Under the pieces are notes generated by a model. The model saw only the letters and a program-made list of their open reading frames with translations. It was not told where the DNA came from and did not search any database. Source: Comamonadaceae bacterium (GTDB taxonomy: Bacteria > Pseudomonadota > Gammaproteobacteria > Burkholderiales > Burkholderiaceae_C). From it: a stretch of 64,000 bases of DNA. Location of the stretch: positions 38,284-102,283 of the forward strand of contig JAIXPL010000049.1 of NCBI GenBank assembly GCA_027486255.1, read 5' to 3'. The position numbers were made by a program, and so were the translations under genes. Positions 13,451 to 38,252 of the stretch are shown here, one piece after another (within the stretch, counting starts at the first letter, position 1; each line of letters begins with the position of its first letter).

Positions 13451-13551
13451 ACTCCGAGTTGCATGTAAATAGAAGACTCAAAAACACATGCGGTATTCTT
13501 GCAGCGTCTCGGCCGGGCCCAGCCCCGCCCCACCCTCCACAAGTTGACCCC

Positions 13552-16467: not shown

Positions 16468-16489
16468 AGGGCGGCTCAGGCGGGCACCT

Positions 16490-16729
16490 TCAGGCCGCAA
16501 ACAGGCGGGCCAATTCACCCACGGTGCGGAACTCGCGAAAACCTTCGCGGAAGGGTTGTTTGCCGGTGAGCTCTTCCAGGGTCACCACCAGGGTGGCCAG
16601 GTCCAGGGAGTCGATGTCCAGCTCGCCCCCCAGGAAGAGGGTATGGTCATTCAGGGCAGGCAGCGCTGCGCCCTTGCCCGCCAGGAGCGCGTGAACTTGC
16701 GCATGAATCAAAGCTGTGGTGTCTTGCAT
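16490..16729 (-). CDS. Acyl carrier protein A
   Basis: 79 aa, GGELDIDSLDLATLVV phosphopantetheine Ser motif. Confidence 0.82.
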   Translation of the reverse strand: MQDTTALIHAQVHALLAGKGAALPALNDHTLFLGGELDIDSLDLATLVVTLEELTGKQPFREGFREFRTVGELARLFAA

Positions 16730-17335: not shown

Positions 17336-18098
17336 GGTAGCCTCCCTCCACGGGCAGGGTCACGGCATTGATCCAGCGGCTGGCATCGGAGAGAAGAAAA
17401 GCTATCGGGTGGGCCACATCCAGCGGCTGGCCGATGCCCATGGGGTGCTGATCGAGCATGTACTGGTACTGCTCGGCCGTCATGGTGGCGCGGGAGCGTG
17501 CCGCCATCTCGGTCTCCACCAGGGCCGGCGCCACCGCGTTCACACGGATGCCGTCGCGCAGGAATTCCATGGCCAAGGCACGCACGGCCGACATGAGGCC
17601 GCCCTTGCTGGCGGCATAGACCACGTTGCCTGGCTGGCCGATCATGCCGGCAATCGAGGAGACAAACACCATGGCCGCCGGTTCGCCCTTGCAGCCCTTT
17701 TGCCGCATGCCGCGTGCCAGTGCCAGGGCGCTGCCCAGGTTGACCTGCATGGTCTGGTCAAAAAAGGCCTGATCGACCTGGCGCACCGCCCGGGTGAGCT
17801 GGATGCCGGCGCAATGGGCCAGGCCATTGAGCGGACCGTGGCGGGTGCACAGCTCCTTGACCCATGACGGAATGTCATCCATGCCCGACAGATCGAAGGC
17901 TTCGGCCTGATGACCCTCGCCGGGGAGTGTGTCCACCACCGCCTGGAGCCTGGCTGCGTCTCGCCCGTTGGCGATGACGCGCGCGCCCAGGCTGGCCAGC
18001 AACTCGGCCGTGGCCCGGCCGATACCGGTGGAGGCCCCCGTGACGAGCACGGTGCGTCCGGTCATCTGCATGGGTAGGGCAAGAGGCGGCAGGGTCAT
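17325..18098 (-). CDS. SDR-family oxidoreductase
   Basis: VLVTGASTGIGRATAELL, YAASK, PVEGGYLA. Confidence 0.86.
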   Translation of the reverse strand: MTLPPLALPMQMTGRTVLVTGASTGIGRATAELLASLGARVIANGRDAARLQAVVDTLPGEGHQAEAFDLSGMDDIPSWVKELCTRHGPLNGLAHCAGIQLTRAVRQVDQAFFDQTMQVNLGSALALARGMRQKGCKGEPAAMVFVSSIAGMIGQPGNVVYAASKGGLMSAVRALAMEFLRDGIRVNAVAPALVETEMAARSRATMTAEQYQYMLDQHPMGIGQPLDVAHPIAFLLSDASRWINAVTLPVEGGYLAR

Positions 18099-18390: not shown

Positions 18391-19464
18391 TCAGGCGGGC
18401 ACAGCCGCCAGGCGCTCGACCAGGGGCCAGGCCAGGGGGGTGCCGCGGGCAATGGGAGCGCGGGCACGGCAGTCGCCCGCCACCAGTTCGGGAAGGTGGC
18501 GCGGATGCAGGCCCAGGCCGGGGCGGATGGAGCGCACGTTGTGCGCCGTCAGCAATTCACCGGCGGCAATGTCGCGCACGGCGTACAGCGAGCGACGGAA
18601 CTCACGACCGCCCTGCTCGCTGGGTTTGAGGTCGTAGCGCACGCGGCCCAGGGCCTGATGGGCATGGCGGCAGCCTTCAACCAGGCGCGAGAACTCCTCG
18701 GGCTCCAGCGAAAAGGCGCTGTCCACACCGCCATCGGCGCGGCGCAGGGTGAAATGTTTTTCTACGATGGCTGCGCCCAGGGCCACAGCGGCCACCGGCA
18801 CGTCGGTGCCGGGGGTGTGGTCCGAAATGCCCACGGGCACGCGCCAGCGGCGGGCCATGTCGACCATGGTCATGAGGTTCACCTCCTCGATGGGGGTGGG
18901 GTAGCCGCTGATGCAGTACAGCAAGGCCGCACCACCTCGGGCACCGGCCACCGCATCCAGGGCTTCCTCGATCTCGGCCTCATCGGCCAGACCCGTGGAG
19001 ATGATCAGCGGTTTACCGGTGGCGGCGGCGCGTCGGATGAGGTTGACGTCAATCATCTCGAAGGAGGCAATCTTGTAGGCCGGGCAGCCCAGGTCTTCCA
19101 GCAGGTCGATGGCGGTCTCGTCAAAGGGCGAGCTGAACAGGGTCACGCTCCGTTCGCGGGCCTTGTCGAACATGGCGCGGTGCCATTCCCAGGGCGTGTG
19201 CGCTTCTTCGTACAGGTTGTAGAGCGTGCGGCCGGACCACAGGCCTCCGCCGATGCGGAACTCCGGCCCGTCGTGGTCAATGGTGATGGTGTCGGCCCGG
19301 TAGGTCTGCAGCTTGATGGCCTGCACGCCACAGTCGGCGGCAGCGTCAATCATTTCGAGCGCGCGTTCCAGACGCCCCTGGTGGTTGCCGGACAACTCGG
19401 CAATCACATAGGGGGCATGGCCCTGCCCGATGGCGATGCCGTTGATGTGGAAGGTGTGGTTCAT
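18391..19464 (-). CDS. pseI: Pseudaminic acid synthase
   Basis: NeuB-fold: PYVIAELSGNHQGRLERALEMIDAAADCGVQAIKLQTYRADTIT; GISDHTPGTDVPVAAVALGAAIVEKHFTL; C-terminal SAF-like region. Confidence 0.9.
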   Translation of the reverse strand: MNHTFHINGIAIGQGHAPYVIAELSGNHQGRLERALEMIDAAADCGVQAIKLQTYRADTITIDHDGPEFRIGGGLWSGRTLYNLYEEAHTPWEWHRAMFDKARERSVTLFSSPFDETAIDLLEDLGCPAYKIASFEMIDVNLIRRAAATGKPLIISTGLADEAEIEEALDAVAGARGGAALLYCISGYPTPIEEVNLMTMVDMARRWRVPVGISDHTPGTDVPVAAVALGAAIVEKHFTLRRADGGVDSAFSLEPEEFSRLVEGCRHAHQALGRVRYDLKPSEQGGREFRRSLYAVRDIAAGELLTAHNVRSIRPGLGLHPRHLPELVAGDCRARAPIARGTPLAWPLVERLAAVPA

Positions 19465-20579
19465 ACGAACTCCTTGTGGCTGAAATCGCGCTCCAGCGCC
19501 TGGTGAAACACCTGGATGCGCCCTTCGCACACGCCGATCACCGCCGGGGTGTCCACGTGCGCCATGTTCTGCTGGCACTGCTCGGAAACCACGCGGTCTT
19601 CGTCCAGCACCTGGTCATTGAAATCGACCACCGAATCCAAAATGGCCTGCTGCTGGGCAGGGCTGATGGCCACCGCCGCTCCGGTACCAGCTACCCATAG
19701 GCGGTAGTTCAGCTCGCAGTGACCGGCATCTACCGGGTCATAGGTCTGCACCGACATCAGGGTGCCATTGGTCACGCCAATGGCCAGGTTGGGATAGATG
19801 AAGTAATGGTTGTACTCGTCCAGTTGTTCACTCTGCACAAGGCCTAGCAGACCTCGCACGCGCTTCCACCACTTCTTGGCCTCGGGCGACAAATCGGAGT
19901 GGCCAGTGGAATGCAGGGCGTCGGCCTCGCAGTCCCAGCGGGCGAGCGTGAATTTCTTGAAGGTGTCTGGATGAACCTGGGCCACGTGGTAGATCTCCAG
20001 CACGCTTTCCACCCCGATCTTCCAGTTGGTCTTCCAGGGCATCTTGCGACTGGCCAGGGGCTGGGTCATGAGCTGTGACAGGTGTTCCAGCACATCCCAC
20101 TGAGCGCCCAGGAACTCCCTGAGACTGGGACCTTCCGAGGCTACACGCACGAACAGGAAATTGCCGCAAGCCTCCAGCGCATAGCGCTTGAGGCGGTGCG
20201 GCCCCGCACTCTCGGCATGGATCTGAAAGGACCGGGCGTTGTCCGGAATGCCGGCCGGGGCACCCGAGGCGTCGTAGGTCCAGCCGTGGTAAGGGCAGAT
20301 CAGCTTTCGGTTGCCGCACTCTTGAGTCTGCAGGGTGGCGCGGCGGTGGGCACAGACATTCAAGAAGGCCCCCAACTCGCCAGCAAAGTTCTGTACCACC
20401 ACGGGCAGGCCGCCCACGCTGAGGGTCACAAAGTCATTGGGCTGGGCCAAGGCTGATTTAAAGCCTGCAAACACCCAGTGCCGGCGAAAGACCTCACGCA
20501 TCTCTTGCTCAAAATGAGCCTGGCTGGTGTAGGCGCTGGGCGCCAGACCGTCGCGTCGAGAAGGGGTGATGCCCATCAT
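19461..20579 (-). CDS. Rieske [2Fe-2S] aromatic-ring-hydroxylating-type oxygenase, alpha subunit family
   Basis: Rieske CAHRRATLQTQECGNRKLICPYHGWTYD; mononuclear Fe region NWKIGVESVLEIYHVAQVHP; start MMGITPSRRD with 4-nt overlap to pseG stop. Confidence 0.9.
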   Translation of the reverse strand: MMGITPSRRDGLAPSAYTSQAHFEQEMREVFRRHWVFAGFKSALAQPNDFVTLSVGGLPVVVQNFAGELGAFLNVCAHRRATLQTQECGNRKLICPYHGWTYDASGAPAGIPDNARSFQIHAESAGPHRLKRYALEACGNFLFVRVASEGPSLREFLGAQWDVLEHLSQLMTQPLASRKMPWKTNWKIGVESVLEIYHVAQVHPDTFKKFTLARWDCEADALHSTGHSDLSPEAKKWWKRVRGLLGLVQSEQLDEYNHYFIYPNLAIGVTNGTLMSVQTYDPVDAGHCELNYRLWVAGTGAAVAISPAQQQAILDSVVDFNDQVLDEDRVVSEQCQQNMAHVDTPAVIGVCEGRIQVFHQALERDFSHKEFV

Positions 20580-21628
20580 GACGCCTGTCCTTCCAGCACG
20601 GGGGCGGCGAGGACGCGAGCCTGGAGCTCGCCGGCCACGCGCTGAGCTCCCAGGCCGTCGACCGTGGCTCTGGCCAGCTGAGACAAAGCCTGCAACTGCA
20701 CCGGAGACTGCCACAGGTCCTGGGCAGCCTCCGCCAGGCGCTGGGCCAGGGCAGAAGCCGTGCCTGTCGCTGGGCGACCATCCACCCTGCGGCACCAAGC
20801 CAGCTGAGGATGAGGCAGCAACCAGGCGCCCTGCTCCGCCCCGGTGACGGCAGCCACCGCCGGCGTGGCACTGGCGGCCAACTCGCCCAGGATGCCGCCC
20901 ACCTGCGTGAGGGCCAGGCGCGCGCGGAGCATGAGGCCGGCCAGATGGGGCAGGCGGTGGTGAAGATAGACGCGGGGATGCGCGGGTACATGCGCCTCGC
21001 GCTGGGTGGGCAAGACCACATCCAGTTCTACACCGGCGGGCAGGCATGCCAGCAAGGCTTGTGTGGTGGGCTCGGTCAAGCCCAGGGGGTCGGCGCCGCC
21101 AAAACTCAGCAGCACCCGCTCGTCGCGCTGGTGCCAGGCCAGAGGGGGGGCGACAAAGGTCGGGCCCACCAGGGCATAGGCGGGCCCCAGCAGGGCCTGC
21201 GCATGGGGAGCGCGCAAGGCATAAGTGGCAGCTTGCGCCAAGGGAGAAGGATTGATGACGACATCGGCCCCGTCCAGCCACTGGCCGCGCTCATCGTCCA
21301 GGAACACGAGATCCTGGCCCGGGCGCCGCAGCGCACGGCGCCAGTGCTCGGGAAAGAGATAGCTGTCGATCACCAGCACATCGGCGCGCTCCAGCGGCTC
21401 CCAGGACAGCAAATCGGCCAGTTCGGGAGGATGGACCAGCAACTCGCACCCCTCAGGGGCCAGAAACCTGGGCAACTCCTGCGTGGCCAGGGCCACCTGC
21501 ATCCCTTGCGCCGCAAGCGCATGCGCCAGCGACAGGCAGCGAGCCACATGGCCCAGGCCTGTGCCGACGGCATGGTCCGCCAGGATCAGGACCCTGGTGG
21601 CCGGCGCGAGTGCGGGAGCGAAATACAT
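20576..21628 (-). CDS. pseG: PseG-like UDP-sugar hydrolase
   Basis: RVLILADHAVGTGLGHVARCLSLAHAL, VFLDDERGQWLDGADVVINPSP, LLSFGGADP, GGILGELAAS; alternative start 21664. Confidence 0.85.
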   Translation of the reverse strand: MYFAPALAPATRVLILADHAVGTGLGHVARCLSLAHALAAQGMQVALATQELPRFLAPEGCELLVHPPELADLLSWEPLERADVLVIDSYLFPEHWRRALRRPGQDLVFLDDERGQWLDGADVVINPSPLAQAATYALRAPHAQALLGPAYALVGPTFVAPPLAWHQRDERVLLSFGGADPLGLTEPTTQALLACLPAGVELDVVLPTQREAHVPAHPRVYLHHRLPHLAGLMLRARLALTQVGGILGELAASATPAVAAVTGAEQGAWLLPHPQLAWCRRVDGRPATGTASALAQRLAEAAQDLWQSPVQLQALSQLARATVDGLGAQRVAGELQARVLAAPVLEGQAS

Positions 21629-21775
21629 GAGAAATGTCCGGAATTCGACAGGTTCAGAGCGCAATGGAAGTGGTCTTAAGCAGGACTTATGCCACCCAGC
21701 TATTTAAGGAGTGCCTGGAGGATGGCTTGGGGATCCAAGCCTCTTTCAGCCCTGGGGGGAGAGGAACAAGGGGTC

Positions 21776-21790
21776 TGGCACGCATTCTGC
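21776..21790 (+). promoter_or_regulatory. Sigma-54-like motif upstream of truncated pseB copy
   Basis: TGGCACG-CATT-CTGC, parallel to the motif at 30237-30251. Confidence 0.55.
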
Positions 21791-21820
21791 GCACAAGCCA
21801 ACACGGGCCATTGCGAGCTG

Positions 21821-21992
21821 TCGAAAAATGGACATGCGCGTCAAACCCCACACAGATATCTGCGACCAATCCATCCTGATCACGGGAGGGACAGGCTCGT
21901 TCGGACGAGCCTTCGTTCGCAACGTGCTGGACAACTGCCCCCGCATCAAGCGACTGGTGGTCTTCAGCTGGGAAGAGCTTAAGCAGTATGAA
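21821..21992 (+). pseudogene. Truncated 5' fragment of pseB (first ~55 codons)
   Basis: About 172 nt aligning to 30281-30452 (about 12 mismatches by hand, first 63 nt identical); open frame then diverges from pseB. Confidence 0.88.
21821..21992 (+). repeat. Direct repeat copy A (pseB 5' end)
   Basis: Aligned by hand with 30281-30452, offset 8460 nt. Confidence 0.9.
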
Positions 21993-22428
21993 GTGGTTCC
22001 TTGGCGCGCGCCTGGTGATCTGCGGCCGTAACCAGGAAAGGCTACAGGCCGTGCACGCCGAACTACGCGGTGCGGACCATGTGATGCAGGAGTGCGACTT
22101 CGCGCAATCCGAAGGCATAGCCCCCTGGCTAAAGGCGGTATGCAAGGAAGTAAGTGCGCTCAAAGGCCCAACGTACTGCGCGGCCGTGCAGGCAACACGA
22201 CCCATCCAGGCCATCAACACGCAGCTAGTCGACCCGGCGCCCTTACAAAACCTGCGTGCTGCCGTCGAATTGGCGCGGCCGTTGAGGCTCTAGCCTGCCA
22301 TGGGCCCGGTGCCTCGCGGGTACATGCATCTTCATCGGCGGCCCCTAAATACTGCCCCCGACAGCGTGGTCTGCACGGCCAGCAAGAGGGGCATCGTCTC
22401 GGCTGTCTAAAGCCTGGGCAGAGGTCGC
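21988..22428 (+). pseudogene. Decayed SDR-family oxidoreductase fragment
   Basis: GARLVICGRNQERLQAVHAELRG...YCAAVQATRPIQ resembles the 17325-18098 SDR (GARVIANGRDAARLQAV...HCAGIQLTRAVRQ); continues after frameshift/stop as DSVVCTASKRGIVSAV* vs GNVVYAASKGGLMSAV. Confidence 0.7.
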
Positions 22429-22639
22429 CCAGCGTTTGCTTTGTCAGTTTTGGATAACGGAAGACCTAATTGCAGGTATTGCAACACCACAGTTTCCCCC
22501 GGACGAAACCGCTCCAGTTGGCAGTCTTCGAACGAATTAATCCCGAGAATCAGACGGGGAGCCCGTGAATCACCGTTGCAGCTCTAGAAAGCGCATCGCT
22601 ACGAATTGCTGAGTCTGATCTTGGTACGCTCATGACTGA

Positions 22640-23359
22640 TCATGAGGTGTGGTAGCTTAAAAGGTCTTCTGCTGAATCGACCTCCCCCCATTCGCTCGTA
22701 GAAGGCACTGCAGCAATTGGGACTTGCCCCGCATCGATAATCTTTTGCAGAGTGCCAGTCATGTGCATCTTGTCGCATTGATCGGATGTCAGCTCCGAGC
22801 GAATTCGCAGCACCTCCCTCCATCCTTCAGGGGTAAAGCGCAACAAGCCCATGTATTGTCCCTGCACCTCATCCACGGAAGTTGGTTTATTGCCAATCTC
22901 GGCCAAGGTGTGTTCAGGCGTGAGACGGAAGGTTTCAGCATCCAGGAGCGGATCGCCAAAGCGCCGTGTCCACAATTCCAGCCAGTTTGGATCGTAGGTC
23001 ACCGCCAGGGATGCCGCGGAAGTCATGAGCGACTGAACGGCCATCGGACTGTAGAAAATATCTGAGTAGCTAACGATGCAGGGCTCCGCTTGCAGCCAAT
23101 CTTGGGCACAGACCAGCGACGAGACCATATTGGTTTCAGCCCAGCGCGCGTTATGGAATTCGACTAGCCCGCGACTGGCCAACAGTTCTCGCTTATAGCC
23201 GGTAACAATGGCAATGTCCGCAATACCGGCTGCACGCAGCGCTTCCAGTTGCCGATCGAGCAGCGCCTTGCCGCGAAGTTCAACGAGACACTTGGGTTGC
23301 TCATCGGTCAGGTTTTTCATTCGACTGCCGCGTCCGGCGGCAAGAATGATGGCTTTCAT
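22640..23359 (-). CDS. Nucleotidyltransferase; candidate CTP:phosphoglutamine cytidylyltransferase (Cj1416-like)
   Basis: MKAIILAAGRGSRMKNLTDEQPKCLVEL; operon context with glutamine kinase-like and GATase-like genes. Confidence 0.75.
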   Translation of the reverse strand: MKAIILAAGRGSRMKNLTDEQPKCLVELRGKALLDRQLEALRAAGIADIAIVTGYKRELLASRGLVEFHNARWAETNMVSSLVCAQDWLQAEPCIVSYSDIFYSPMAVQSLMTSAASLAVTYDPNWLELWTRRFGDPLLDAETFRLTPEHTLAEIGNKPTSVDEVQGQYMGLLRFTPEGWREVLRIRSELTSDQCDKMHMTGTLQKIIDAGQVPIAAVPSTSEWGEVDSAEDLLSYHTS

Positions 23360-24141
23360 AACAACTCGCTCTCGTACTCTAGCAATTTGAATTCTTCTCG
23401 GCGATAGGGGGCGCGCAAAGCCAGCAGTCGGGGGTTCCGGCGCCTTGGCTTACCGTACGTCAAAGCCTCGCCTGAGTGCCAATCTAGCACTCGGCCACCA
23501 GCAGCTTCTAGCACAGCCTGCCCAGCCGCTGTATCCCACTCGGAGCTACCCACCAGACGCGGGAACACATCCACCTCTCCAGCAGCCAGCAAGCCGTATT
23601 TCAGCGCCGAGCCAACCGCTACACGCTCGGTGATTCCGTTCCGGTTAGCAAAAACGTCCACATCCGGGTGATCATGAAATCGGCTGGCCGCCATCCGGAG
23701 CGAATCAGATCGCTCATACGCAGACAGCGCCGTCTCACCCCCCTCACGAATTCGCCAAGCACCCATGCCCCTAGCTCCCCAGTAGAGCGAATCTATCGCG
23801 GGGGCAAACACCACGCCGAGCACAGGGCGACCTTGATCCACCAGTGCAATATTCACGGTGAATTCTCCATTTCCAGCCAGAAAGTCCTTTGTGCCATCCA
23901 GCGGATCAACCAGCCAGTAGCGCTCGGCAGCAAGGCATAGATCTTCGCCTTCTTCGGAGACAACGACCAGTCCGCTGCTTGTCAAACGGTCAGTAATCAC
24001 TCGATGTGCCGCCTGATCGGCGAGAGTCAAGGGTGAGCCGTCCTGCTTGAACTGCACAGACAACGTCTGCGGGTAATAGCTCATGATGGCAAGACCAGCC
24101 ACACGCGCTGCCTCAAGGGCGAGTTCTAGCCTCTTATCCAC
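23356..24141 (-). CDS. CysQ/inositol-monophosphatase-family 3'-phosphatase-like
   Basis: WLVDPLDGTKDFLAGNGEFTVNIALVDQGRPVLGVVFAP; SSEWDTAAGQAVLEAAGG; probable GTG start overlapping the upstream stop. Confidence 0.85.
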   Translation of the reverse strand: MDKRLELALEAARVAGLAIMSYYPQTLSVQFKQDGSPLTLADQAAHRVITDRLTSSGLVVVSEEGEDLCLAAERYWLVDPLDGTKDFLAGNGEFTVNIALVDQGRPVLGVVFAPAIDSLYWGARGMGAWRIREGGETALSAYERSDSLRMAASRFHDHPDVDVFANRNGITERVAVGSALKYGLLAAGEVDVFPRLVGSSEWDTAAGQAVLEAAGGRVLDWHSGEALTYGKPRRRNPRLLALRAPYRREEFKLLEYESELL

Positions 24142-24751
24142 CGAACAGCGCTTTAATTCTTCGTAGATCGCGAGAGACAAAGTTTTCTTCGCGCTCCGGG
24201 TGCCACATCCACCCTTCCCAGGGCAGAGACTGATGGCGAATAGCTTCAATCTCGCCATCCTCACTTCTGGCAACTACTTCAAAGCCTACCGGGCAATTGA
24301 CTAAAGAGAAGCCGTGATAGCTGTTGACCTCGCCGGTAATTTCTCCATTGAGACGATGCCGAGTTCTGACATGCCCTTGAACGGAACATAGGTCTACCCC
24401 CACCCTGTGAGCCATCATCTGCATCCCACGGCAGATACCCAGAAGGGGCCTCTCATAATGGCTGGCATGGTCAAGCAGACGTTCCTCGGTCAAATCCCTC
24501 TCGCGAAACTGCCCAATGTCATTTCCACCCGAAAGTACAAAGGCCTGTGGTTTAACGGCAGCAAGCCAAGCGTCCAACATTTCTAGATCGGACCGGCCAT
24601 CAGGCAAGTCCTTGCACAGCCCGTTGGGTACTGGCACAGGGACAAATCCAGCTACCAGCAATAAGGTGATCAAGCGCTGATCCAAAGCATCCCGGGTTTC
24701 ATTGCGTTCAGCAAAAGTATCCACCCGCTGACTAACGGCAACCACCTTCAT
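24134..24751 (-). CDS. Class I glutamine amidotransferase-like; candidate gamma-glutamyl-CDP-amidate hydrolase (Cj1417-like)
   Basis: SGGNDIG, PLLGICRGMQMMAH nucleophile elbow, WMWHPERE His-x-Glu. Confidence 0.8.
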   Translation of the reverse strand: MKVVAVSQRVDTFAERNETRDALDQRLITLLLVAGFVPVPVPNGLCKDLPDGRSDLEMLDAWLAAVKPQAFVLSGGNDIGQFRERDLTEERLLDHASHYERPLLGICRGMQMMAHRVGVDLCSVQGHVRTRHRLNGEITGEVNSYHGFSLVNCPVGFEVVARSEDGEIEAIRHQSLPWEGWMWHPEREENFVSRDLRRIKALFGG

Positions 24752-27072
24752 GCCAGTAACTCCACCCGTCGCCCAACACAATCCAAATGTAGGCGTTCTG
24801 CCGTAGACCATCGCCGATAGAGCACCTCACCGGCCCCAATTACGGCAGGTAAGCCCAGCTCCCCAGCACGGATTGCCATGTGCGAATTGGCGCCACCCCA
24901 AGCAGTGATAAGGCCGGCAATCGGGTAGGCAAACAGCCAATCAAATCCGGGGTCAGCATTTGGAATACAAACAATCGCGCCTGCCAATAATTCGCGCGCA
25001 TCACACCCCACCACCGGCGCCGTCACATGCTTCTGCGTAATGAAATTAGGTGCAGTCTCCGGCCATTCAAAAGCCCAGACATCCTCGGGTTTGGCGATCA
25101 GCGGCGGCAGTGAAATCTTCAAAGTTTCGGCATAGCGTGCTTTACCTTGTTCAATAGAGCGCAAGAGCACATCTTTCGGATCAGTCGCCGCGACGTGCAG
25201 TTCCTTAAACGCCGCAATATCGCAATAAGCAAGATCCTCGCGGCTGAACCCGTATTGGCCGCCGACTTCGGCGATCAGTGCTAGCGCGTCCGATAGATTG
25301 CGTGTGAAATGGAACTTCGCTAGTTCACGCAGTTCGATGCCCGCCTGCATGAAGTCGAACAGCCCCACCGGATCGGGTTGTAGGCCATGAGCCTCTAGCA
25401 GCTTCACAATTTCACGCATCTGCGGAAGGGTTAGCGCGAACGGTTTGACGGGCTCAGGAACCGGTGGCCGCCGGTTCCAGTCGAAATAAAGCTCAGGTGC
25501 TTCATCGTAGCGAGGAGAGAGAATGTCGTAGGTGCCAGGGCGCAGGTGGCCGTAACGCGCAAAGAAAGTCGCCTTATCCAGCGTAGCGCGATCTCGCGCC
25601 AGTTGGCCGCTTACGGTCGAAACACCACCCATGAAAGCGTCGTAATCAGCCTGCGAGAAAACACCCACGGCCACCAGAGATTTGAGCATCTGCACGGCCA
25701 CAAATCCGGCCCGAGCCAAACCTGCAAACGGCAAGGTGCCATAGCGCTTGGCGTCCTCCAGCAACCAATAGATACGCTCAAGCGGATCGGCACTCGATGC
25801 CAGCAATTCTTCGCGCCGAGCGTTGAGGGTATCGATCTTGGCTGCATCACCTCGCCATAAGCCTTCCCTGGGGTGCACGATTCGGTTGGTCAGTTTTCTC
25901 AAGCTGTGGGCAATCGCCTCGCGCTCGTCCTTCGAGAAGCCGGCCTCCGCCAAGCGCTCCAGCCGCTGCGGCAAATCCAGCGTGTAGCACGAGAAGACAA
26001 TCTCGAACTCCACTTTGTCGTGCAAGGTCGGCTCGGCCAGCAGCCGATCAATGTAGTGATCGACCAGCCGCCCGGCAAGACCCTCATCCAGATCGGCAGG
26101 GATGAAAGAGTTGAATGACAACCGCACATCGATATAAGGTAGCCCGAAGAAATGTGGCATCAACGGGAAGCTGCGCAGATTACGGTAGCCGTAATTGTGG
26201 CGCTGGTAGGCCCAGATGGCGTCGGTGATCAATTCCCGATAGAGCGAGAGTGCCAGCGGCTTCGGGCGGATGCCGACAATCTCTGCCGGGTTCCAATCCG
26301 GCATCACGCCATACACAGTACGCCGCCCCATGAGGAAGGGGTGCGGCTGCATGCCCCGCGCCACCTTGCGCTGGATACTCTCTAGGCGGGCAGCCTGAAC
26401 TGCCTCAGACTCTGGCGATCTAGGCAAGACGAGTGGTCGGACTTGCAGCAACCAAAGCACCTCTTCGTCAGCTTCACGCGTCACCGCGAATTCGCAATCC
26501 AGAGGCACTTGGCCAAACAAGGCCAGCAATTCATCAAGCAGTGCAACAACAGGGGCCAAAGTAGATGCTGGCGGAACAGCGGTATTTGCGGCTTGCTGCC
26601 ACACTCGGCCACCCAGGCCACCCGTGACTGCGGCTGTATCAGAGCCATCCGACCAGTTCACCACCCGGTAGGGCGCACATGTATTGGGGTCGTGCGAAAA
26701 CGCCACGCCGGAGCGCACAACCTGGGTAAGCATCGGCTGGATCAACACCTCATCAGTGAGTTGTACGTCTCCATAGGCTGCAACGACTTTTTCCACCGCC
26801 GGGTCAAGCCCAGCCACCTCCACATTGAGGATGGACAAAAACGCTCCCGCGTTGGATTGCGCTTCCCCATCTTCCTGACCGCAACTTGAGCGCACGATCC
26901 AGGGACCTGCACCCAGACAACCGACGATCCCGGACAGGCACAACGAACGATCCGCCTTCCACTGCGCAACGGTAAAGACACGCAACGGGGCAATGCGTGC
27001 AGTCTTTAGCACACCTTGCAAGGCGGCCAGCGTGCCTGCCTTGGTGGAGAACGCCAGCGCCATGCCAATCAC
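24748..27072 (-). CDS. PEP-synthase/dikinase-like protein; candidate L-glutamine kinase (Cj1418-like)
   Basis: ATP-grasp-like N-terminus (WIVRSSCGQED), C-terminal phosphohistidine domain GLITAWGGANSHMAIRAGELGLPAVIGAGE; GTG 27072 or ATG 27063 start. Confidence 0.78.
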   Translation of the reverse strand: MIGMALAFSTKAGTLAALQGVLKTARIAPLRVFTVAQWKADRSLCLSGIVGCLGAGPWIVRSSCGQEDGEAQSNAGAFLSILNVEVAGLDPAVEKVVAAYGDVQLTDEVLIQPMLTQVVRSGVAFSHDPNTCAPYRVVNWSDGSDTAAVTGGLGGRVWQQAANTAVPPASTLAPVVALLDELLALFGQVPLDCEFAVTREADEEVLWLLQVRPLVLPRSPESEAVQAARLESIQRKVARGMQPHPFLMGRRTVYGVMPDWNPAEIVGIRPKPLALSLYRELITDAIWAYQRHNYGYRNLRSFPLMPHFFGLPYIDVRLSFNSFIPADLDEGLAGRLVDHYIDRLLAEPTLHDKVEFEIVFSCYTLDLPQRLERLAEAGFSKDEREAIAHSLRKLTNRIVHPREGLWRGDAAKIDTLNARREELLASSADPLERIYWLLEDAKRYGTLPFAGLARAGFVAVQMLKSLVAVGVFSQADYDAFMGGVSTVSGQLARDRATLDKATFFARYGHLRPGTYDILSPRYDEAPELYFDWNRRPPVPEPVKPFALTLPQMREIVKLLEAHGLQPDPVGLFDFMQAGIELRELAKFHFTRNLSDALALIAEVGGQYGFSREDLAYCDIAAFKELHVAATDPKDVLLRSIEQGKARYAETLKISLPPLIAKPEDVWAFEWPETAPNFITQKHVTAPVVGCDARELLAGAIVCIPNADPGFDWLFAYPIAGLITAWGGANSHMAIRAGELGLPAVIGAGEVLYRRWSTAERLHLDCVGRRVELLA

Positions 27073-27857
27073 CCCTTGCGGCGTGCCGACCAGGCGCGGG
27101 TGAGATAAGTGGCCTCGATAACCTTCAAATCCGCGATCCGTTGCTCAACGAATACAAGGAAGGCATCGAACTTTTGGGGGCCAAGTTGTACGCGCAAGTC
27201 ATTGACGGAGCGCCATGCACCCAAATAACGCTCTGGCGTCATTTCGATCACATGACGTCCTTCCAGATACACAACATCTTCAAAATGAGGCGAAGCCCAC
27301 AATTGCTCGGTCAAGGTTTCGGTGATGCCTGAACGGCCAGAAGAAACGCGCTTGATATTCGGGCGCAGGGTATCAAGGTGAGCCTCGATTTCAACCAACA
27401 AGGGATTCGCCTCGATAAGCCGAGGATTCCACAATGCAGTGAAACGCCCCCCAGCACGTAAGACCCGGCGAAACTCCTTGGTCGCGGTATTGAAGTTGGC
27501 CCAGTGAAAACTTGAGGCCATCGTCAACCAGTCAGCAGAAGCATCCGCAAGGCCAGTAGCCTCGGCACTGGCGGCCAGCCAACGAATGTGGGTGTTCTGG
27601 CTATCGGCCATGCCGTTTTGCCGCATATCGTCATTCGGCTCAACGGCGGTCACAGAGCTAACCCCCGCAGCGTGGACCATTCTTGTCCATATGCCCGTAC
27701 CCGCGCCTACATCTACAAATTCGACTTCTGCAACAGGTTTATTCAAGAGCCCGAGCAGCGCCTTTAGAACGGAAGGGCAATAGTCCGGGCGATTTTGTGA
27801 GTAGTCTTTAGCCAAACCTGTGAAATCACCAGCCTTTAGTGTTTGCATAATCTTCAT
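27069..27857 (-). CDS. Class I SAM-dependent methyltransferase
   Basis: FVDVGAGTGIWTRMV, AVEPNDDMR, ASSFHWAN, FRRVLRAGGRF. Confidence 0.88.
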   Translation of the reverse strand: MKIMQTLKAGDFTGLAKDYSQNRPDYCPSVLKALLGLLNKPVAEVEFVDVGAGTGIWTRMVHAAGVSSVTAVEPNDDMRQNGMADSQNTHIRWLAASAEATGLADASADWLTMASSFHWANFNTATKEFRRVLRAGGRFTALWNPRLIEANPLLVEIEAHLDTLRPNIKRVSSGRSGITETLTEQLWASPHFEDVVYLEGRHVIEMTPERYLGAWRSVNDLRVQLGPQKFDAFLVFVEQRIADLKVIEATYLTRAWSARRKG

Positions 27858-28417
27858 TTCCTTAAACTTAAAATCTGACTTAAATCTGCCGCTAGTGCAG
27901 TGACCGTGCGCTCCGAATCAAACTCCACAATCCAATCGGCCGCTTCCGGCTCGTCGATGGGTAGATCCAACCCGGCCACATGGGTCAATTCGCCGGCATC
28001 AAAGCGGCGATAGATTCCCTTTGGATCACGACGACGCAGTTCTTCCAATGGCACCTTGATGTATACCTCGAAATAGCCAGGAAGGTTTGCGCGATTCCAA
28101 GTGTGCACTTCGCGGAAGAGCGAAATGGTGGCAATAACTACGATTAGCCCCTGCTCGGCGAGCATCTGACACAATTGGGCATAACGCATAGCCAGTGCCA
28201 GGCGAAGGTCACGGCCATGGTTGTGGACGTTCGCATCGGCAACACCCATCAACTCCCGCAAAACATCACCATCTAGCATCACCACGGGCTGTCCCTGCAT
28301 GCGAAGTCGGCGCACCAGCTCGCAAGCAATGGTGGTTTTACCTGCACCCGACAAGCCAGTGATCCACACCACAGAGCCCGAGGGCTGCCCCGAAGGATTG
28401 ATTTCGTACGAACTCAT
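27854..28417 (-). CDS. Adenylylsulfate-kinase-like protein; candidate cytidine diphosphoramidate kinase (Cj1415-like)
   Basis: WITGLSGAGKTTIACEL, MLDGDVLREL, ATISLFREVHTWNR, YFEVYIKVPLEELRRRDPKGIY. Confidence 0.82.
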   Translation of the reverse strand: MSSYEINPSGQPSGSVVWITGLSGAGKTTIACELVRRLRMQGQPVVMLDGDVLRELMGVADANVHNHGRDLRLALAMRYAQLCQMLAEQGLIVVIATISLFREVHTWNRANLPGYFEVYIKVPLEELRRRDPKGIYRRFDAGELTHVAGLDLPIDEPEAADWIVEFDSERTVTALAADLSQILSLRK

Positions 28418-29466
28418 ATGCAGTAGCCTAGACGAGCCAGCTTGTCGGAAGTCTCTTTTCCGATCCCAGCACATACTAGTGATTGAATATCTGGATGCCC
28501 TCTGAATATCTGCCGGTAGTTAAAGGCCGTAGACAGCGGCGATTCAAGGACCAGCGATCCCCATCGACGGCGGGATAGGAGACTGGTGATAGTTTCAGAA
28601 ACCGTATCCAAGTTCTCGTGAATTTCTTCAAATCGAATGGACACCACCCCAGGAATTTTCATCCAGGCCAAAGATTCATCTAGAATCTGCTCAAAAGACA
28701 GAAAACTGCAGTGCTCGGCAGGACCGCCAAGTTTGGATGGGATACTGCCTTCAGCCATGAAACTCAAAAAAGCCGGGATATTGGATCGAATATCGTCAAT
28801 CAATCCCATGTTGCCGCCGAACACCTCTTTAACAGCGCCATTGTGAGGCGTCCCGGTCTCACAGTAACGGCGCCACCAGGCCCAATTCGAGAATAAGGAA
28901 TCAACAGGATGACGGAGTACAAACAAGATGCGATGGAATCCATCGTGCAAAGGGCGAAGTAGCAAGGCTTCTGTCTGGTCAGGCTCCATTTGAAAACTCG
29001 ACTGGTGCCTCAAGGTTGCATGGCCCGAGCAGATCAGAGAATGGTTTGCATACATACCGCATGAGGCCAGACCATCTTGAAAAAGGGGAGCCAAGGTTGA
29101 ATGGCTGAGAAAGGCATTTGAAAAGTAGTTTCTTCCTGTCCCAAAGAGTCCGATGACCACCAGAGGGTGAATGTCTTCAGAAGCGTTCACCGCCTCAATA
29201 TAATTCTCCCAAGCCCAGCCTGCATCTTGCCAATAATGGTTTGGATAAGTGTTGTTTGGATGCTGGGCCATGAAATGCAAAAAATCACTTCCAGAGGCTT
29301 CCGGATAAGTTCGTGAAAACCAACCAGGCGAAAAATGCGGACTGGGGGAACGATTCTCTTTGCAACCGGTCTCCACATAATGCCGATAGGCCTCTTCGTT
29401 AGAACCGGCAAAACCGTAGCGATGCCGGTAGAAAGAGGCATCGAAAAACCTGTGCAATCCAGTCAT
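28414..29466 (-). CDS. Sulfotransferase-fold P-loop protein; candidate (methyl)phosphoramidate transferase
   Basis: VVIGLFGTGRNYFSNAFL (5'-phosphosulfate-binding-like loop) and ILFVLRHPVDSLFSNWAWWRR (3'-phosphate-binding-like motif). Confidence 0.65.
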   Translation of the reverse strand: MTGLHRFFDASFYRHRYGFAGSNEEAYRHYVETGCKENRSPSPHFSPGWFSRTYPEASGSDFLHFMAQHPNNTYPNHYWQDAGWAWENYIEAVNASEDIHPLVVIGLFGTGRNYFSNAFLSHSTLAPLFQDGLASCGMYANHSLICSGHATLRHQSSFQMEPDQTEALLLRPLHDGFHRILFVLRHPVDSLFSNWAWWRRYCETGTPHNGAVKEVFGGNMGLIDDIRSNIPAFLSFMAEGSIPSKLGGPAEHCSFLSFEQILDESLAWMKIPGVVSIRFEEIHENLDTVSETITSLLSRRRWGSLVLESPLSTAFNYRQIFRGHPDIQSLVCAGIGKETSDKLARLGYCI

Positions 29467-30131
29467 ACGGTGTCCATTGCGTAGACGCTTGCCCATGACG
29501 GGGCGAGGTACAAGCGGTTTACATACCGAATAAACGAAAACTCATCTCTGATTTGCAGCGGAGAATACAAGGGCCGATGCGAACTTAGCATTACATTGTA
29601 TTGCGCACTCAACACCAGCAGGGCACGTGTTGAAGGTAGTTGGCCTCTTTGGATACCGAAGGTCTCGGCAATGAAACTGGTGGTTGCCGACCCAGTAATC
29701 ATCTGCATGCGGGCCGGGTCATGGTATTGCACCGATTCCTCTTCCGGGATGCCGGCGGCCCTAAAACGGGACTGCAACGTTCCCAGACGCAGCCGCCAGG
29801 GTTTGCGGCATGGCAGGGCCTTTAAGTAGTTATGGAAAACTTTCGATGGATCGGAAACGAAGGTTGGCATGTCGGCAAGTACAAATTGCTGCTGCTTGGC
29901 CATTTGCCTGAGCCCGCCCTCCCCTAAGTTGGCCAGCGAAGTCCAGGACTTGAACCAGACCAAGGCACGCCGTTGCCCAGGGTCCTTTACCAGGTGTAGC
30001 CGCTTGTAGGCTGCCCGGCGACCGTCTTGGCGGACGAAGCACAAGTAATCATGCTGCGATGCATTACGGACATGCCATTTCTGGCGCAAGGTCAAGGTGC
30101 TCAATCCGGCTCTCCTGGAATCACGGCCCAC
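29463..30131 (-). CDS. Hypothetical protein, first gene of the overlapping operon
   Basis: 222 aa ORF with 4-nt ATGA overlap to the sulfotransferase-like gene; no family recognised; start uncertain. Confidence 0.55.
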   Translation of the reverse strand: MGRDSRRAGLSTLTLRQKWHVRNASQHDYLCFVRQDGRRAAYKRLHLVKDPGQRRALVWFKSWTSLANLGEGGLRQMAKQQQFVLADMPTFVSDPSKVFHNYLKALPCRKPWRLRLGTLQSRFRAAGIPEEESVQYHDPARMQMITGSATTSFIAETFGIQRGQLPSTRALLVLSAQYNVMLSSHRPLYSPLQIRDEFSFIRYVNRLYLAPSWASVYAMDTV

Positions 30132-30236
30132 GCCGCATGAACGACAGGTCGAAGCAATCTATATGCCAGGTATCTATTGCATCCCGGAGGCCCCCAACAC
30201 ACCCAGTCGGGTCAGTTGGCCAGGGCTGAACGGGTG

Positions 30237-30251
30237 TGGCACGCAATCTGC
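30237..30251 (+). promoter_or_regulatory. Sigma-54-like promoter of pseB
   Basis: TGGCACG-CAAT-CTGC, 36 nt before the pseB ATG. Confidence 0.65.
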
Positions 30252-30280
30252 AATACACCCCCAACAGACCATCAAAGGTG

Positions 30281-30452
30281 TCGAAAAATGGACATGCGCG
30301 TCAAACCCCACACAGATATCTGCGACCAATCCATCCTGATCACAGGCGGAACAGGTTCGTTCGGCCGCGCCTTCGTGCGCAACGTGCTGGACAACTGCCC
30401 CCGCATCAAGCGCCTGGTGGTCTTCAGCCGGGACGAGCTCAAGCAATATGAA
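30281..30452 (+). repeat. Direct repeat copy B (5' end of intact pseB)
   Basis: Aligned by hand with 21821-21992. Confidence 0.9.
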
Positions 30453-31334
30453 ATGGCTCAGGAGTTCCCGGAGGAAAAATACCCGGCCCTGCGCTTTTTC
30501 CTGGGCGATGTGCGGGACCAGAACCGCCTGCGCCGTGCCCTTCAGGGCATCGACACCGTGGTCCACGCCGCCGCCCTCAAACAAGTGCCTGCGGCCGAAT
30601 ACAACCCCTTTGAGTTCATCCAGACCAACATCATGGGGGCGCAGAACCTCATCGAGGCCTGCCTGGACACCGAGGTCAAGCGCGTGGTGGCCCTGTCCAC
30701 CGACAAAGCGGCGGCCCCCATCAACCTGTACGGCGCCACCAAACTGTGCAGCGACAAGCTGTTCATCGCCGCCAACAACTTCCGCGGCGCGCGCGACCTG
30801 CGGTTTTCCGTGGTGCGCTATGGCAACGTCATGGGCTCGCGCGGCTCGGTCATCCCCTTCTTCATGAACCAGGCCAAGACCGGGCGCCTGTCCATCACCG
30901 ACCCGGGTATGACCCGCTTCAACATTTCGCTCGACGAAGGCGTCGAGATGGTCTGCTGGGCCTTGCAGCATGCCCTGGGCAGTGAGATTTTTGTGCCCAA
31001 GATTCCCTCCTACCGCATCAGCGACGTGGCCGAGGCCATCGGGCCGAGCTGCACGCACGAGGTGGTGGGCTCCCGCCCTGGCGAGAAGATCCATGAGGAA
31101 ATGATCACCCCCAGCGACAGCCCGCACACGGTGGACCTGGGCGATTACTACGCGATCCTGCCCGCAGGCCAGGGCAGCAGCATGAGCGTGGCCCGTTACC
31201 TGGGTATGCGGCAGGCCCAGCAACTCGATGCGGACTTCTCCTACAACTCGGGCACCAACCCCGACTTCCTGACCGTGCCTCAAATCCGGCATCTGATCAG
31301 GGCGCATATCCAGCCTGAATTCGAGCCCGTATGA
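30288..31334 (+). CDS. pseB: UDP-GlcNAc 4,6-dehydratase (inverting)
   Basis: ILITGGTGSFGRAFVRNVL, DVRDQNRLRRALQGIDTVVHAAALKQVPAAEYNPFE, STDKAAAPINLYGATK. Confidence 0.96.
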   Translation: MDMRVKPHTDICDQSILITGGTGSFGRAFVRNVLDNCPRIKRLVVFSRDELKQYEMAQEFPEEKYPALRFFLGDVRDQNRLRRALQGIDTVVHAAALKQVPAAEYNPFEFIQTNIMGAQNLIEACLDTEVKRVVALSTDKAAAPINLYGATKLCSDKLFIAANNFRGARDLRFSVVRYGNVMGSRGSVIPFFMNQAKTGRLSITDPGMTRFNISLDEGVEMVCWALQHALGSEIFVPKIPSYRISDVAEAIGPSCTHEVVGSRPGEKIHEEMITPSDSPHTVDLGDYYAILPAGQGSSMSVARYLGMRQAQQLDADFSYNSGTNPDFLTVPQIRHLIRAHIQPEFEPV

Positions 31335-32530
31335 GCCCACCGGCGCCGATTCCCTACGGCCGTCAGTCAATCAGCGAAGACGATATCGCCGCTGTGGAGC
31401 GCGTGCTGCGCAGCGACTGGCTGACCCAGGGGCCTGCCGTTCCCGCCTTTGAAGCAGCGCTGGCGCGCCATGTGGGCGCCGCTCATGCCGTGGCCGTGAA
31501 CAGCGCCACCAGCGCCCTGCACCTGGCCTGCCTGGCGCTGGACGTGGGCCCGGGCGATGTGGTGTGGACTTCGCCCATCAGCTTCGTGGCCAGCAGCAAC
31601 TGCGCGCTCTACTGCGGGGCTGAGGTGGACTTTGTCGACATTGATGCGCGCAGCTACAACCTGAGCATCGAGGCCCTGCGCGCCAAGCTGGAGCTCGCCC
31701 GCACCCAGGGCCAAGTGCCCAAGGTCGTGATCCCGGTTCACCTGGCCGGCCAGTCTTGCGACATGGCGGCCCTGCACGCACTCTCCCAGACCTACGGCTT
31801 TCGCATCATCGAGGACGCCTCGCACGCCGTCGGCGCGCACTACCTGGGCCAGCCCGTGGGCAATGGCCGCTACAGCGACATCACGGTCTTTAGCTTCCAC
31901 CCCGTCAAGATCATCACCAGTGCCGAAGGCGGCATGGCACTGACCAATGACGCGGCCCTGGCCCAGCGCATGGCGCGCCTGCGTAGCCACGGCATCACCC
32001 GCGAAGCCGATGAAATGACCGAGCCCAGCCACGGCCCCTGGTACTACCAGCAGCTGGAACTGGGCTGGAACTACCGCATGACCGAGCTCCAGGCCGCCCT
32101 GGGCCTGAGCCAGCTCAGCCGGCTGGACGCCTTTGTGGCGCGCCGCCGCGCCCTGGCCGCGCGCTACAACACCCTGCTGGCCGGCCTGCCCTGCCAGCGG
32201 CCTTGGCAGCACCCGGACACCGCCTCCAGCTGGCATCTGTATGTGATTCGCTTGCAGGAACCCCTGGCACCCGGCCGCCACCGGCAGGTGTTTGAAGCCC
32301 TGCGTGCGCAAGGTATCGGCGTGAACCTGCACTACATCCCCATTCACCTGCAGCCCTATTACCAGGCCCGCTACGACCAGGCCCGCTACGGCCAGCGCCA
32401 CCTGCCCGAGGCAGAGCAGTACTACCGGCAGGCCATCAGCCTGCCCTTGCACGCCGAACTCAGCGATGCAGAGCAAGACCGTGTGGTCGCGGCCCTGCAC
32501 CAAGCACTGCATACACGCCATGCCGGATAA
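31331..32530 (+). CDS. pseC: UDP-4-amino-4,6-dideoxy-N-acetyl-beta-L-altrosamine transaminase
   Basis: IPYGRQSISEDDIAAVERVLRSDWLTQGP, VFSFHPVKIITSAEGG; overlaps pseB stop. Confidence 0.95.
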   Translation: MSPPAPIPYGRQSISEDDIAAVERVLRSDWLTQGPAVPAFEAALARHVGAAHAVAVNSATSALHLACLALDVGPGDVVWTSPISFVASSNCALYCGAEVDFVDIDARSYNLSIEALRAKLELARTQGQVPKVVIPVHLAGQSCDMAALHALSQTYGFRIIEDASHAVGAHYLGQPVGNGRYSDITVFSFHPVKIITSAEGGMALTNDAALAQRMARLRSHGITREADEMTEPSHGPWYYQQLELGWNYRMTELQAALGLSQLSRLDAFVARRRALAARYNTLLAGLPCQRPWQHPDTASSWHLYVIRLQEPLAPGRHRQVFEALRAQGIGVNLHYIPIHLQPYYQARYDQARYGQRHLPEAEQYYRQAISLPLHAELSDAEQDRVVAALHQALHTRHAG

Positions 32531-33403
32531 AGCCTCTCTGCTCCAGCGCGTGGCCCTGGGTAGCGCGCAGTTTGGCCTACCCTACGGCGTGGCCCACAGC
32601 GGCCCTCGCGTAAGCCAAGCCGAGGCGCATGCCATCGTGGACGAGGCAGCACGCCTGGGCGTGCGCGTGCTCGACACCGCCATGGCCTACGGCAACAGCG
32701 AAGAGGTGCTGGGACGGCACGGCCTGAAGGGCTGGCAAGTGGTCAGCAAGCTGCCCGCCCTGCCCTCCGACTGCCCTGACGTTCTCGCCTGGGTGCAGCA
32801 ATCGGTGGCGCAGTCGCTTGAGCGGCTGCAAGTGCCCCGCCTGCATGGCCTGCTGCTGCACCGCCCCGGGCAATTGCTGGAAACTCAGGGCCCTGCCTTG
32901 CTCGCCGCATTGCGCGCCGTGCAGGCGGAAGGGCTGGTGCACAAAATCGGCCCCTCCATTTACAGCCCTGACGAGCTGGCGCCCCTCATGGCGCTGCACC
33001 CGTTTGAGATGGTCCAGGCGCCCGCCAGCATCCTGGACCAGCGCCTGCACCACAGCGGCTGGGCCCAGCGCCTGCATGCCGCCGGGGTGGAAGTGCACAC
33101 CCGCTCGGCCAATTTGCAAGGGCTGCTGCTCTCCCCCCAGGTGCAGGCCCAGCGCTTTGCTGCCTGGCAGCCACTTTGGACCTACTGGCACGGCTGGCTG
33201 GCCTCGCAGGGCCTCACGGCCTTGCAGGCCTGCATTCGTTATACGCTGGCGCAGCCGCATGTCAGCCAGGTCGTCCTGGGCTTTGACAGCGTGGCGCAGC
33301 TGCGCGACATGGCCGCAGCCGCAGCCGGCCCGGCCTTGAACAGCCTGCCCGACTGGCCGGCGTTTGATGAGCGCCTGCTCAACCCCTCGCTATGGACTCC
33401 CGC

Positions 33404-33407
<4 letters not shown>
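32520..33407 (+). CDS. Aldo/keto reductase family protein
   Basis: ALGSAQFGLPYGVAH, VLDTAMAYGNSEEVLG, AKR-like repeats. Confidence 0.87.
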
Positions 33408-35434
<2,027 letters not shown>

Positions 35435-35444
35435 AAGACAAGCC

Positions 35445-38173: not shown

Positions 38174-38252
38174 GGTCATACTCCTTAAAGGATTGATTAA
38201 AAGGGAGACCCGGATTCACCGGAACTTCCGTCTGGCTTGGAATGCCATCCGG

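Follow-up and report, generated by a model that had tools for sequence, protein, structure and literature searches.

Described phosphoramidate and phosphorus-bearing glycan systems

Among surface modifications, O-methyl phosphoramidate (MeOPN) is a rare one. The enzymes for it have, to our knowledge, been described from the Campylobacter capsule only, and we know of no enzyme that has so far been assigned to its methylation step in that genus. Campylobacter obtains the 3'-phosphate of CDP-phosphoramidate through Cj1415-1418 (PMC11800397), and phosphoramidates have been reported on the LPS of Xanthomonas and Shewanella (PMC3907429). Phosphorus is also present in the type A flagellin glycan of Clostridioides difficile and the b-type flagellin glycan of Pseudomonas aeruginosa, for which a CDP-activated donor has been proposed, although in these it forms a phosphodiester to (di)methylthreonine and other enzymes are involved (PMC11833859). 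In Aeromonas piscicola AH-3, according to the part of the report that was available, an island with pseBC on one side and pseHFGI on the other (fgi-1 to fgi-12) builds a polar flagellin glycan carrying phosphorus and methyl groups; HexNAc bears additions of +80 and +14 Da, published as phosphate and methyl, and the island genes are not recognised there as a phosphoramidate pathway (PMC7874193).

In the window analysed here, a stretch of 64,000 nucleotides from a Comamonadaceae bacterium (contig JAIXPL010000049.1), an eight-gene operon resembles the C. jejuni MeOPN pathway (Cj1415-Cj1422) in that the four donor-forming enzyme types and a methyltransferase are encoded in one cluster, a likeness drawn from family models. 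It differs in its gene order, in not being a capsule locus and in its position between pse genes and close to flagellins, and it encodes two further proteins, a CysQ-like phosphatase and one with a sulfotransferase fold. The same locus is comparable to PAPS-dependent sulfation, in which APS kinase, sulfotransferase and CysQ types act on a 3'-phosphorylated nucleotide 5'-anhydride donor, but its predicted donor is CDP-amidate rather than APS, and its APS-kinase-like protein belongs to a distinct subfamily.

Organisation of the operon

Eight minus-strand open reading frames occur at 22640-30131, all present as given in an earlier, sequence-only reading of this DNA. All seven junctions abut or overlap (e.g. 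the kinase stop and GATase start, APS-kinase-like/methyltransferase, methyltransferase/kinase and CysQ-like/nucleotidyltransferase), so that the genes appear to be translationally coupled, as in one transcript. Families were assigned by HMM searches against Pfam and NCBIfam, and the genome is a draft that is 90% complete. The lengths of 205 and 187 aa previously given for the GATase and the APS-kinase-like protein correspond to internal starts of 225 and 206 aa open reading frames, and the likely starts lie at 24751 (205 aa) and at or near 28414 (187 aa), respectively. The first operon gene (29463..30131, minus strand) codes for a 222 aa protein with no Pfam or NCBIfam match and one weak, partial match among 399 Pseudomonadota genomes.

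Predicted synthesis of the phosphoramidate donor

The 774 aa PEP-synthase-like protein (24748..27072, minus strand) contains PPDK_N and PEP-utilizers domains and matches NF004508 with 1005 bits over residues 5-773 (cut-off 501), while PEP synthase and Rph models reach at most 43 bits, over short domains only. This rules out the PEP synthase and rifampicin phosphotransferase identities, against which the sequence-only reading had proposed that the protein be checked, and it groups with neither. Its phosphohistidine motif, GGANSH731M, is invariant (alignment A1, 14 homologues), and the protein is predicted to be an L-glutamine kinase of the Cj1418 type. The adjacent class I GATase (24134..24811, minus strand; Peptidase_C26/GATase in Pfam) has as its best NCBIfam model NF045546, that of the Campylobacter gamma-glutamyl-CDP-amidate hydrolase (Cj1417 type), with a score of 88.8 bits that is below the cut-off of 250. 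The PRK11366 gamma-Glu-GABA hydrolase model scores 28 bits, and a PuuD-type identity, the comparison set for this protein in the same reading, is likewise ruled out. All 47 GATase homologues searched match NF045546, and Cys127, His204 and Glu206 are invariant; the protein is a predicted gamma-glutamyl-CDP-amidate hydrolase. The 239 aa nucleotidyltransferase (22640..23359, minus strand) belongs to NTP_transf_3/NTP_transferase, its nearest solved structure is the CTP:phosphocholine cytidylyltransferase 1jyk, and no match was found in phage records; it is a predicted CTP:phosphoglutamine cytidylyltransferase (Cj1416 type).

The APS-kinase-like protein (27854..28474, minus strand; APS_kinase), a predicted CDP-amidate 3'-kinase of the Cj1415 type, scores 206 bits with NF004041, above the cut-off of 127, as opposed to 116.9 bits with the true apsK model TIGR00455, below its cut-off of 138.7. 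NF004041 is matched by all 40 of its operon homologues, and no other APS-kinase-like gene is encoded in the draft genome (90% complete). These scores bear on a different explanation, whereby the APS-kinase-like enzyme would supply PAPS, the 360 aa protein would be an ordinary sulfotransferase and the CysQ-like protein would clear PAP, with the kinase, GATase and nucleotidyltransferase serving separately. All three proteins are indeed of PAPS-pathway type, and CysN is encoded in the genome, such that APS is probably available. Given that the protein falls under the true apsK cut-off, that its subfamily is found both beside and fused to the kinase, and that its gene lies inside one translationally coupled operon with those for the kinase, GATase and nucleotidyltransferase, we consider such a sulfation module very unlikely.

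The operon would instead make a phosphoramidate donor. The 774 aa kinase would N-phosphorylate L-glutamine, the 239 aa enzyme would then add CMP from CTP, the GATase-type hydrolase would take off glutamate to leave CDP-amidate, and the APS-kinase-like enzyme would add a 3'-phosphate, yielding an analogue of PAPS. For each of these four steps, the model is a Campylobacter enzyme that has been characterised and is of the same family. The recurrent gene set described below, the fusions of the APS-kinase-like domain with the kinase, and the kinase and GATase model scores make it very probable that the product is 3'-phospho-CDP-amidate.

Candidate transfer, recycling and methylation functions

The 360 aa protein (28414..29496, minus strand) has no Pfam or NCBIfam match, and a search of the 399 Pseudomonadota genomes matched nothing of it beyond the N-terminal repeat, which is of the FDxxFY type. 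It does contain both a 5'-phosphosulfate loop, the P-loop-like GLFGTGR (116-122), and a 3'-phosphate motif, RHPVDSLFSNW (195-205), in which the Ser (S203, a Thr in homologues) lies eight residues past the Arg (R195). Homologues with the same invariant motifs adjoin the operons with fused APS-kinase-like and kinase domains at three Acidobacteriota loci (L100, L115 and L120). The four best Foldseek matches in the PDB are PAPS sulfotransferases (prob 0.77-0.98, E=0.003-0.012), obtained with a low-confidence model (pLDDT 57), and when this family was compared by hhalign with two neighbour families of sulfotransferase type, the probability was low, with the right register for one of them. A sulfotransferase fold is thus supported by the motifs, by the homologues that adjoin operons in another phylum and by a structural match, albeit a weak one, and the protein is a candidate phosphoramidate transferase, which may move the phosphoramidoyl group from the donor onto a sugar hydroxyl.

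The phosphatase (23356..24273, minus strand; Inositol_P) scores 220.5 bits with TIGR01331, slightly under the cut-off of 228.8, and is for this reason called CysQ-like only; it is predicted to clear the leftover 3'-phospho-CMP by 3'-dephosphorylation. The SAM-dependent methyltransferase (27069..27857, minus strand; Methyltransf_11) is predicted to form the O-methyl ester of the phosphoramidate. Two types of methyltransferase occur in these operons, at 25 and 45 loci, with both present at one locus (L046), and that of the window is one of the two. We infer the transfer, recycling and methylation steps, together with the flagellin target discussed below.

Recurrence of the gene set across bacteria

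Near the same kinase, the GATase is encoded at 91 of 96 loci, the cytidylyltransferase at 90, the APS-kinase-like protein at 77 and the methyltransferase at 72, in at least 11 phyla, and a CysQ-like gene is found in 11 of the 96 operons. As dozens of unrelated genomes have the same set next to the kinase, its occurrence in the window is not due to chance. The APS-kinase-like domain is fused to the kinase at six acidobacterial loci, and a fusion of sulfotransferase-like and APS-kinase-like domains adjoins the operon on an Azospirillum plasmid. Family assignment, operon conservation across phyla and gene fusions together lend strong support to the synthesis of an activated phosphoramidate, as proposed in the sequence-only reading, and all four types of Campylobacter donor enzyme that it had placed together are recovered by family models in the one cluster.

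Kinase homologues also stand alone, away from the pathway, as on a Cupriavidus taiwanensis plasmid, where the gene neighbours those for a thiamine-diphosphate enzyme and a HisC-type transaminase. Such cases would fit a kinase that, with its partners, makes a P-N small molecule (a secondary metabolite) and decorates no glycan. In the window, the donor pathway is complete and lies, together with a transferase-type protein, within an island of sugar and flagellin genes, which makes a secondary metabolite highly improbable and favours glycan decoration.

Sulfotransfer_3 is the commonest Pfam family of the 93 operon-adjacent proteins, with 13 members, and Sulfotransfer_1 accounts for eight. In a profile-based count, 28 of 30 sulfotransferase matches lie within 4 kb of the operon, a figure that is partly circular because the profiles were built from operon neighbours; the Pfam count is the independent one. 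New here is that the neighbours met most often beside such operons belong to the sulfotransferase superfamily and that a CysQ-like 3'-phosphatase is added in some operons, which suggests that the logic of PAPS is reused for phosphoramidate transfer. More tentatively, the scheme of PAPS sulfation may have been rebuilt for P-N chemistry in bacteria of at least 11 phyla, with 3'-phospho-CDP-amidate as donor and with CysQ-like 3'-phosphatases that recycle the by-product. The phosphoramidoyl transferases would then have a sulfotransferase fold, those for MeOPN in Campylobacter possibly among them, and the tag would be placed on the flagellin glycan here, in A. piscicola and in several Pseudomonas-type lineages. 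If the proposed function of the operon is right, the pathway would be widespread, the class of its transferases could be predicted and assayed, non-pathogenic species could serve for the study of transfer and methylation, and the phosphorus on some flagellin glycans may need to be re-examined as phosphoramidate.

Acquisition of the operon and its probable target

The GC content of the operon is 52-59%, against mostly 62-69%, and the operon is flanked by a 184-nt direct repeat with copies that are 92% identical. The left copy (21816..21999, plus strand) is a truncated 5' end of pseB, and the right copy (30276..30459, plus strand) lies inside the intact pseB. GC content and repeat show recent horizontal acquisition, and the operon is absent from all 36 congeners searched. 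Horizontal acquisition, the manner of tag transfer and by-product recycling (through a 3'-phospho donor, sulfotransferase-fold enzyme and CysQ-like phosphatase) had no place in the sequence-only reading.

The insertion site is precisely between pse genes. On one side, pseB, pseC, an aldo/keto reductase gene, pseF fused to a class III aminotransferase gene and an MptE-like maf gene (30177..37265, plus strand) were identified with Pfam and give the operon its flagellin-glycosylation setting; on the other lie pseI, a Rieske-like oxygenase gene and pseG (18391..21664, minus strand), where the assignments of pseI and pseG come from reading and from homology to the pse loci of relatives. A flagellin (37349-38179; Flagellin_N/C), a second one found by tblastn (38663-39487; 84% identical) and a flagellin-family protein that is probably FlgL (41666-42598; Flagellin_N/C) are encoded beyond, all on the minus strand.

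A similar arrangement is found in A. piscicola LMG 24783, where the core operon, in the order APS-kinase-like, methyltransferase, kinase, GATase and nucleotidyltransferase, lies between pseGI and pseBC, the position of the AH-3 island; no CysQ-like gene was found at the LMG 24783 locus. In AH-3, the published mass of an oxonium ion, m/z 284.1, fits HexNAc-phosphate (284.05) and not HexNAc-phosphoramidate (283.07) (PMC7874193). This mass would be compatible with phosphoramidate only if the labile P-N bond had been lost; the masses are those of AH-3 and the operon is that of LMG 24783.

The proposal of the sequence-only reading is thus strongly supported for phosphoramidate synthesis, and for the flagellin glycan as target it is backed by context only: the pse/maf and flagellin genes flanking the operon, the recurrent flagellin linkage elsewhere and the A. 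piscicola island, all of which are circumstantial. The pathway could also be correctly assigned and the acceptor be LPS, exopolysaccharide or capsule, the pse and flagellin neighbourhood being a mere insertion site. The horizontal acquisition of the operon is consistent with this, as are the phosphoramidates on Xanthomonas and Shewanella LPS (PMC3907429) and the scarcity of flagellin-family genes, which occur near the operon at only 12 of 80 loci within the stretch seen per locus, most operons being without one there. We regard another acceptor as rather unlikely, in view of the exact insertion between pse genes and the occurrence of the same core operon by pseBC in A. piscicola and by flagellin-family genes in several lineages. 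The operon probably makes an activated phosphoramidate that ends up on a glycan of the cell surface, with the flagellin glycan as the likeliest acceptor; in six Pseudomonas-type loci, the kinase gene lies 0-209 bp from a flagellin-family gene.

Operon content and predicted donor synthesis

The eight minus-strand ORFs proposed in the sequence-only reading were borne out when the coordinates were re-read (22640-30131), and the starts and stops of neighbouring ORFs overlap or abut, so that the operon reads as one transcript. In order of transcription from the (-) strand, profile searches assigned the proteins of 222 aa (first; unknown), 360 aa (second; no family matched), 206 aa (third; APS_kinase), 262 aa (fourth; Methyltransf_11), 774 aa (fifth; PPDK_N and PEP-utilizers), 225 aa (sixth; GATase), 305 aa (seventh; Inositol_P/CysQ-like) and 239 aa (eighth; NTP_transf_3). 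In Campylobacter jejuni, glutamine, ATP and CTP are the starting materials for the 3'-phosphate of CDP-phosphoramidate, whose formation needs Cj1415-Cj1418, and placement of the phosphoramidate group requires Cj1421/Cj1422 (PMC11800397; PMC3546167). Likened by family models, the operon has exactly the same enzyme types as the Cj1415-Cj1418 pathway; the four donor-forming types claimed earlier (kinase, nucleotidyltransferase, GATase and APS-kinase-like) are all present by family assignment. The operon very likely makes an activated phosphoramidate. This kind of pathway is already known; new against the open literature searched are its setting, the probable transferase class, the phosphatase and its breadth.

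NF004508 (cut-off 501 bits) spans the whole of the 774 aa protein, the predicted L-glutamine kinase, with a score of 1005 bits. Models of PEP synthase and of rifamycin phosphotransferase align with no more than short domains and reach at most 43 bits, and on these scores both identities were rejected. The top NCBIfam model for the GATase is the Campylobacter-pathway gamma-glutamyl-CDP-amidate hydrolase (88.8 bits, below the equivalog cut-off of 250), followed by GMP synthase (52.6 bits); the hydrolase model was matched by 47/47 operon GATases tested. The APS-kinase-like protein clears the NF004041 cut-off but falls short of the one for true apsK, and NF004041 was also matched by each of its 40 operon homologues. 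For the nucleotidyltransferase, CTP:phosphocholine cytidylyltransferase is the closest solved structure.

Proposed transfer, recycling and methylation

The predicted donor would be a PAPS analogue, with a nucleotide 5'-anhydride and a 3'-phosphate. Among 93 operon-adjacent proteins, Sulfotransfer_3 is the commonest Pfam family (13; Sulfotransfer_1, 8), and sulfotransferase-family genes adjoin the operons of Dechloromonas (L044), a Rhodocyclales genome (L071), Methylobacter (L070) and an Azospirillum plasmid. Beside the operon on the A. lipoferum 4B plasmid (L131:5644-8184) is encoded an 846 aa protein with a C-terminal APS-kinase-like domain and an N-terminus assigned by eye as sulfotransferase-like. 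The 360 aa protein (28414-29496, -) has no Pfam match. The motifs GLFGTGR and RHPxDSLxxNWxxWR are invariant between it and neighbours of the Acidobacteriota fused APS kinase-kinase operons, its Arg195-Ser203 spacing is that of the sulfotransferase 3'-phosphate site, and the top four PDB matches to its poor model (pLDDT 57) are all PAPS sulfotransferases. The 360 aa protein probably transfers the phosphoramidoyl group, and the CysQ-like enzyme would strip the 3'-phosphate from the transfer by-product. In its own draft genome (about 90% complete) no second APS kinase or other close CysQ was found; CysN is present. CDP-glycerol glycerophosphotransferase-family proteins, encoded near several operons (L051, L056, L067, L133), are a possible alternative transferase class. 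Transfer by a sulfotransferase-fold protein is considered probable; in the open literature searched no relevant paper was found joining a Campylobacter phosphoramidate transferase with a sulfotransferase.

The operon methyltransferases form two groups by score against that of the window (window type, 25 loci; other type, 45), which co-occur in L046. The CysQ-like gene of this MAG locus is split into two ORFs (L046:7549-8246), through a frameshift or assembly error. Knockouts of C. jejuni Cj1419 and Cj1420 gave no change, leaving their roles unassigned (PMC11800397); redundancy between two such methyltransferases is possibly one reason for this silence.

Distribution of the operon

When each GTDB species was represented by one genome, at least 537 loci with kinase relatives were found; by record title, the best 80 of these include Pseudomonadota, Verrucomicrobiota, Bacteroidota, Kapaibacteria, Balneolota, Cyanobacteriota, Nitrospinota, Acidobacteriota, Planctomycetota, Bacillota and Fibrobacterota. 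With 15 loci from a 399-genome Pseudomonadota sample, at least two of which duplicate loci among the best 80, and the window, 96 kinase loci were compared, several of them stopping at contig edges. Near the kinase are encoded a GATase of this type (91/96), a nucleotidyltransferase (90/96), an APS-kinase-like protein (77/96), a methyltransferase (72/96) and a CysQ-like protein (11/96). The commonest order, APS kinase-methyltransferase-kinase-GATase-(CysQ)-nucleotidyltransferase, is also that of the window. In six Acidobacteriota-type loci (L100, L101, L104, L107, L115, L120) the APS-kinase-like domain is fused to the kinase N-terminus, joining two donor-forming steps within one protein. A 777 aa radical-SAM/B12-binding protein is encoded immediately downstream of one operon (L071:13647-15980). 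A Cupriavidus taiwanensis plasmid also carrying nifK encodes a stand-alone kinase homologue without other pathway genes (L132:8947-11310), adjoining a thiamine-diphosphate enzyme and a HisC-type transaminase, and possibly serving a different phosphorus-nitrogen product.

Probable recent acquisition of the operon

The operon was probably acquired recently, as suggested by its GC content (52-59%; surroundings mostly 62-69%), a flanking 184-nt direct repeat (copies 92% identical), absence of an above-cut-off kinase from all 36 congeners searched, and the 91% identity of its kinase to that of Dechloromonas, the nearest among the matches listed. In two congeners pseB is directly contiguous with pseC and the operon is absent. 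The left repeat copy consists of the truncated 5' end of pseB, and after it comes the remnant of a short-chain dehydrogenase (SDR); these pseudogene remains (21687-22500, +) adjoin the left end of the operon, and the dehydrogenase fragment shares 31% identity with the SDR at 17325-18098. In this draft of 85 contigs, a join error at the repeat could conceivably have placed the operon here, but this is unlikely because the two copies differ.

Flagellin glycan as proposed target

The operon is flanked by pseI/pseG on one side and pseB/pseC/pseF/maf on the other, followed by flagellin and FlgK-type genes. Flagellin-family genes occur within 12 of the 80 best of at least 537 loci, against a rough expectation of about 0.5% for any 22 kb taken at random from a genome of 4 Mb. 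The kinase lies 0-209 bp from such a gene in six Pseudomonas-type loci; other flagellin-linked loci belong to Marinobacter, Zoogloea, Chitinibacter and a Bacillota genome. Flagellin may well be the target of the phosphoramidate. Aeromonas piscicola LMG 24783 encodes APS kinase-methyltransferase-kinase-GATase-nucleotidyltransferase within a pse island. In strain AH-3, deletion of the corresponding polar flagellin glycosylation island, fgi-1 to fgi-12, removes most of a heptasaccharide whose HexNAc residues bear +80 and +14 Da (PMC7874193). The operon genes would be positions 8-12 from fgi-1, as counted in the type strain LMG 24783. By mass calculation, the reported AH-3 ion of 284.1 fits phosphate (284.05), whereas phosphoramidate would give 283.07 and its methyl ester 297.08. 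The ion speaks against phosphoramidate on flagellin, although not decisively, because P-N bonds are acid-labile.

Elsewhere in the window, a pseF-type cytidylyltransferase is fused to a class III aminotransferase (33392-35434, +), and a protein read as Rieske-type oxygenase-like, encoded between pseI and pseG (19461-20567, -), might hydroxylate the nonulosonate. FabH-like, short-chain dehydrogenase and AMP-synthetase-like genes, also assigned by reading (11604-16518, -), are partly shared with L036 and resemble the fatty-acyl genes of the Aeromonas group II flagellin islands.
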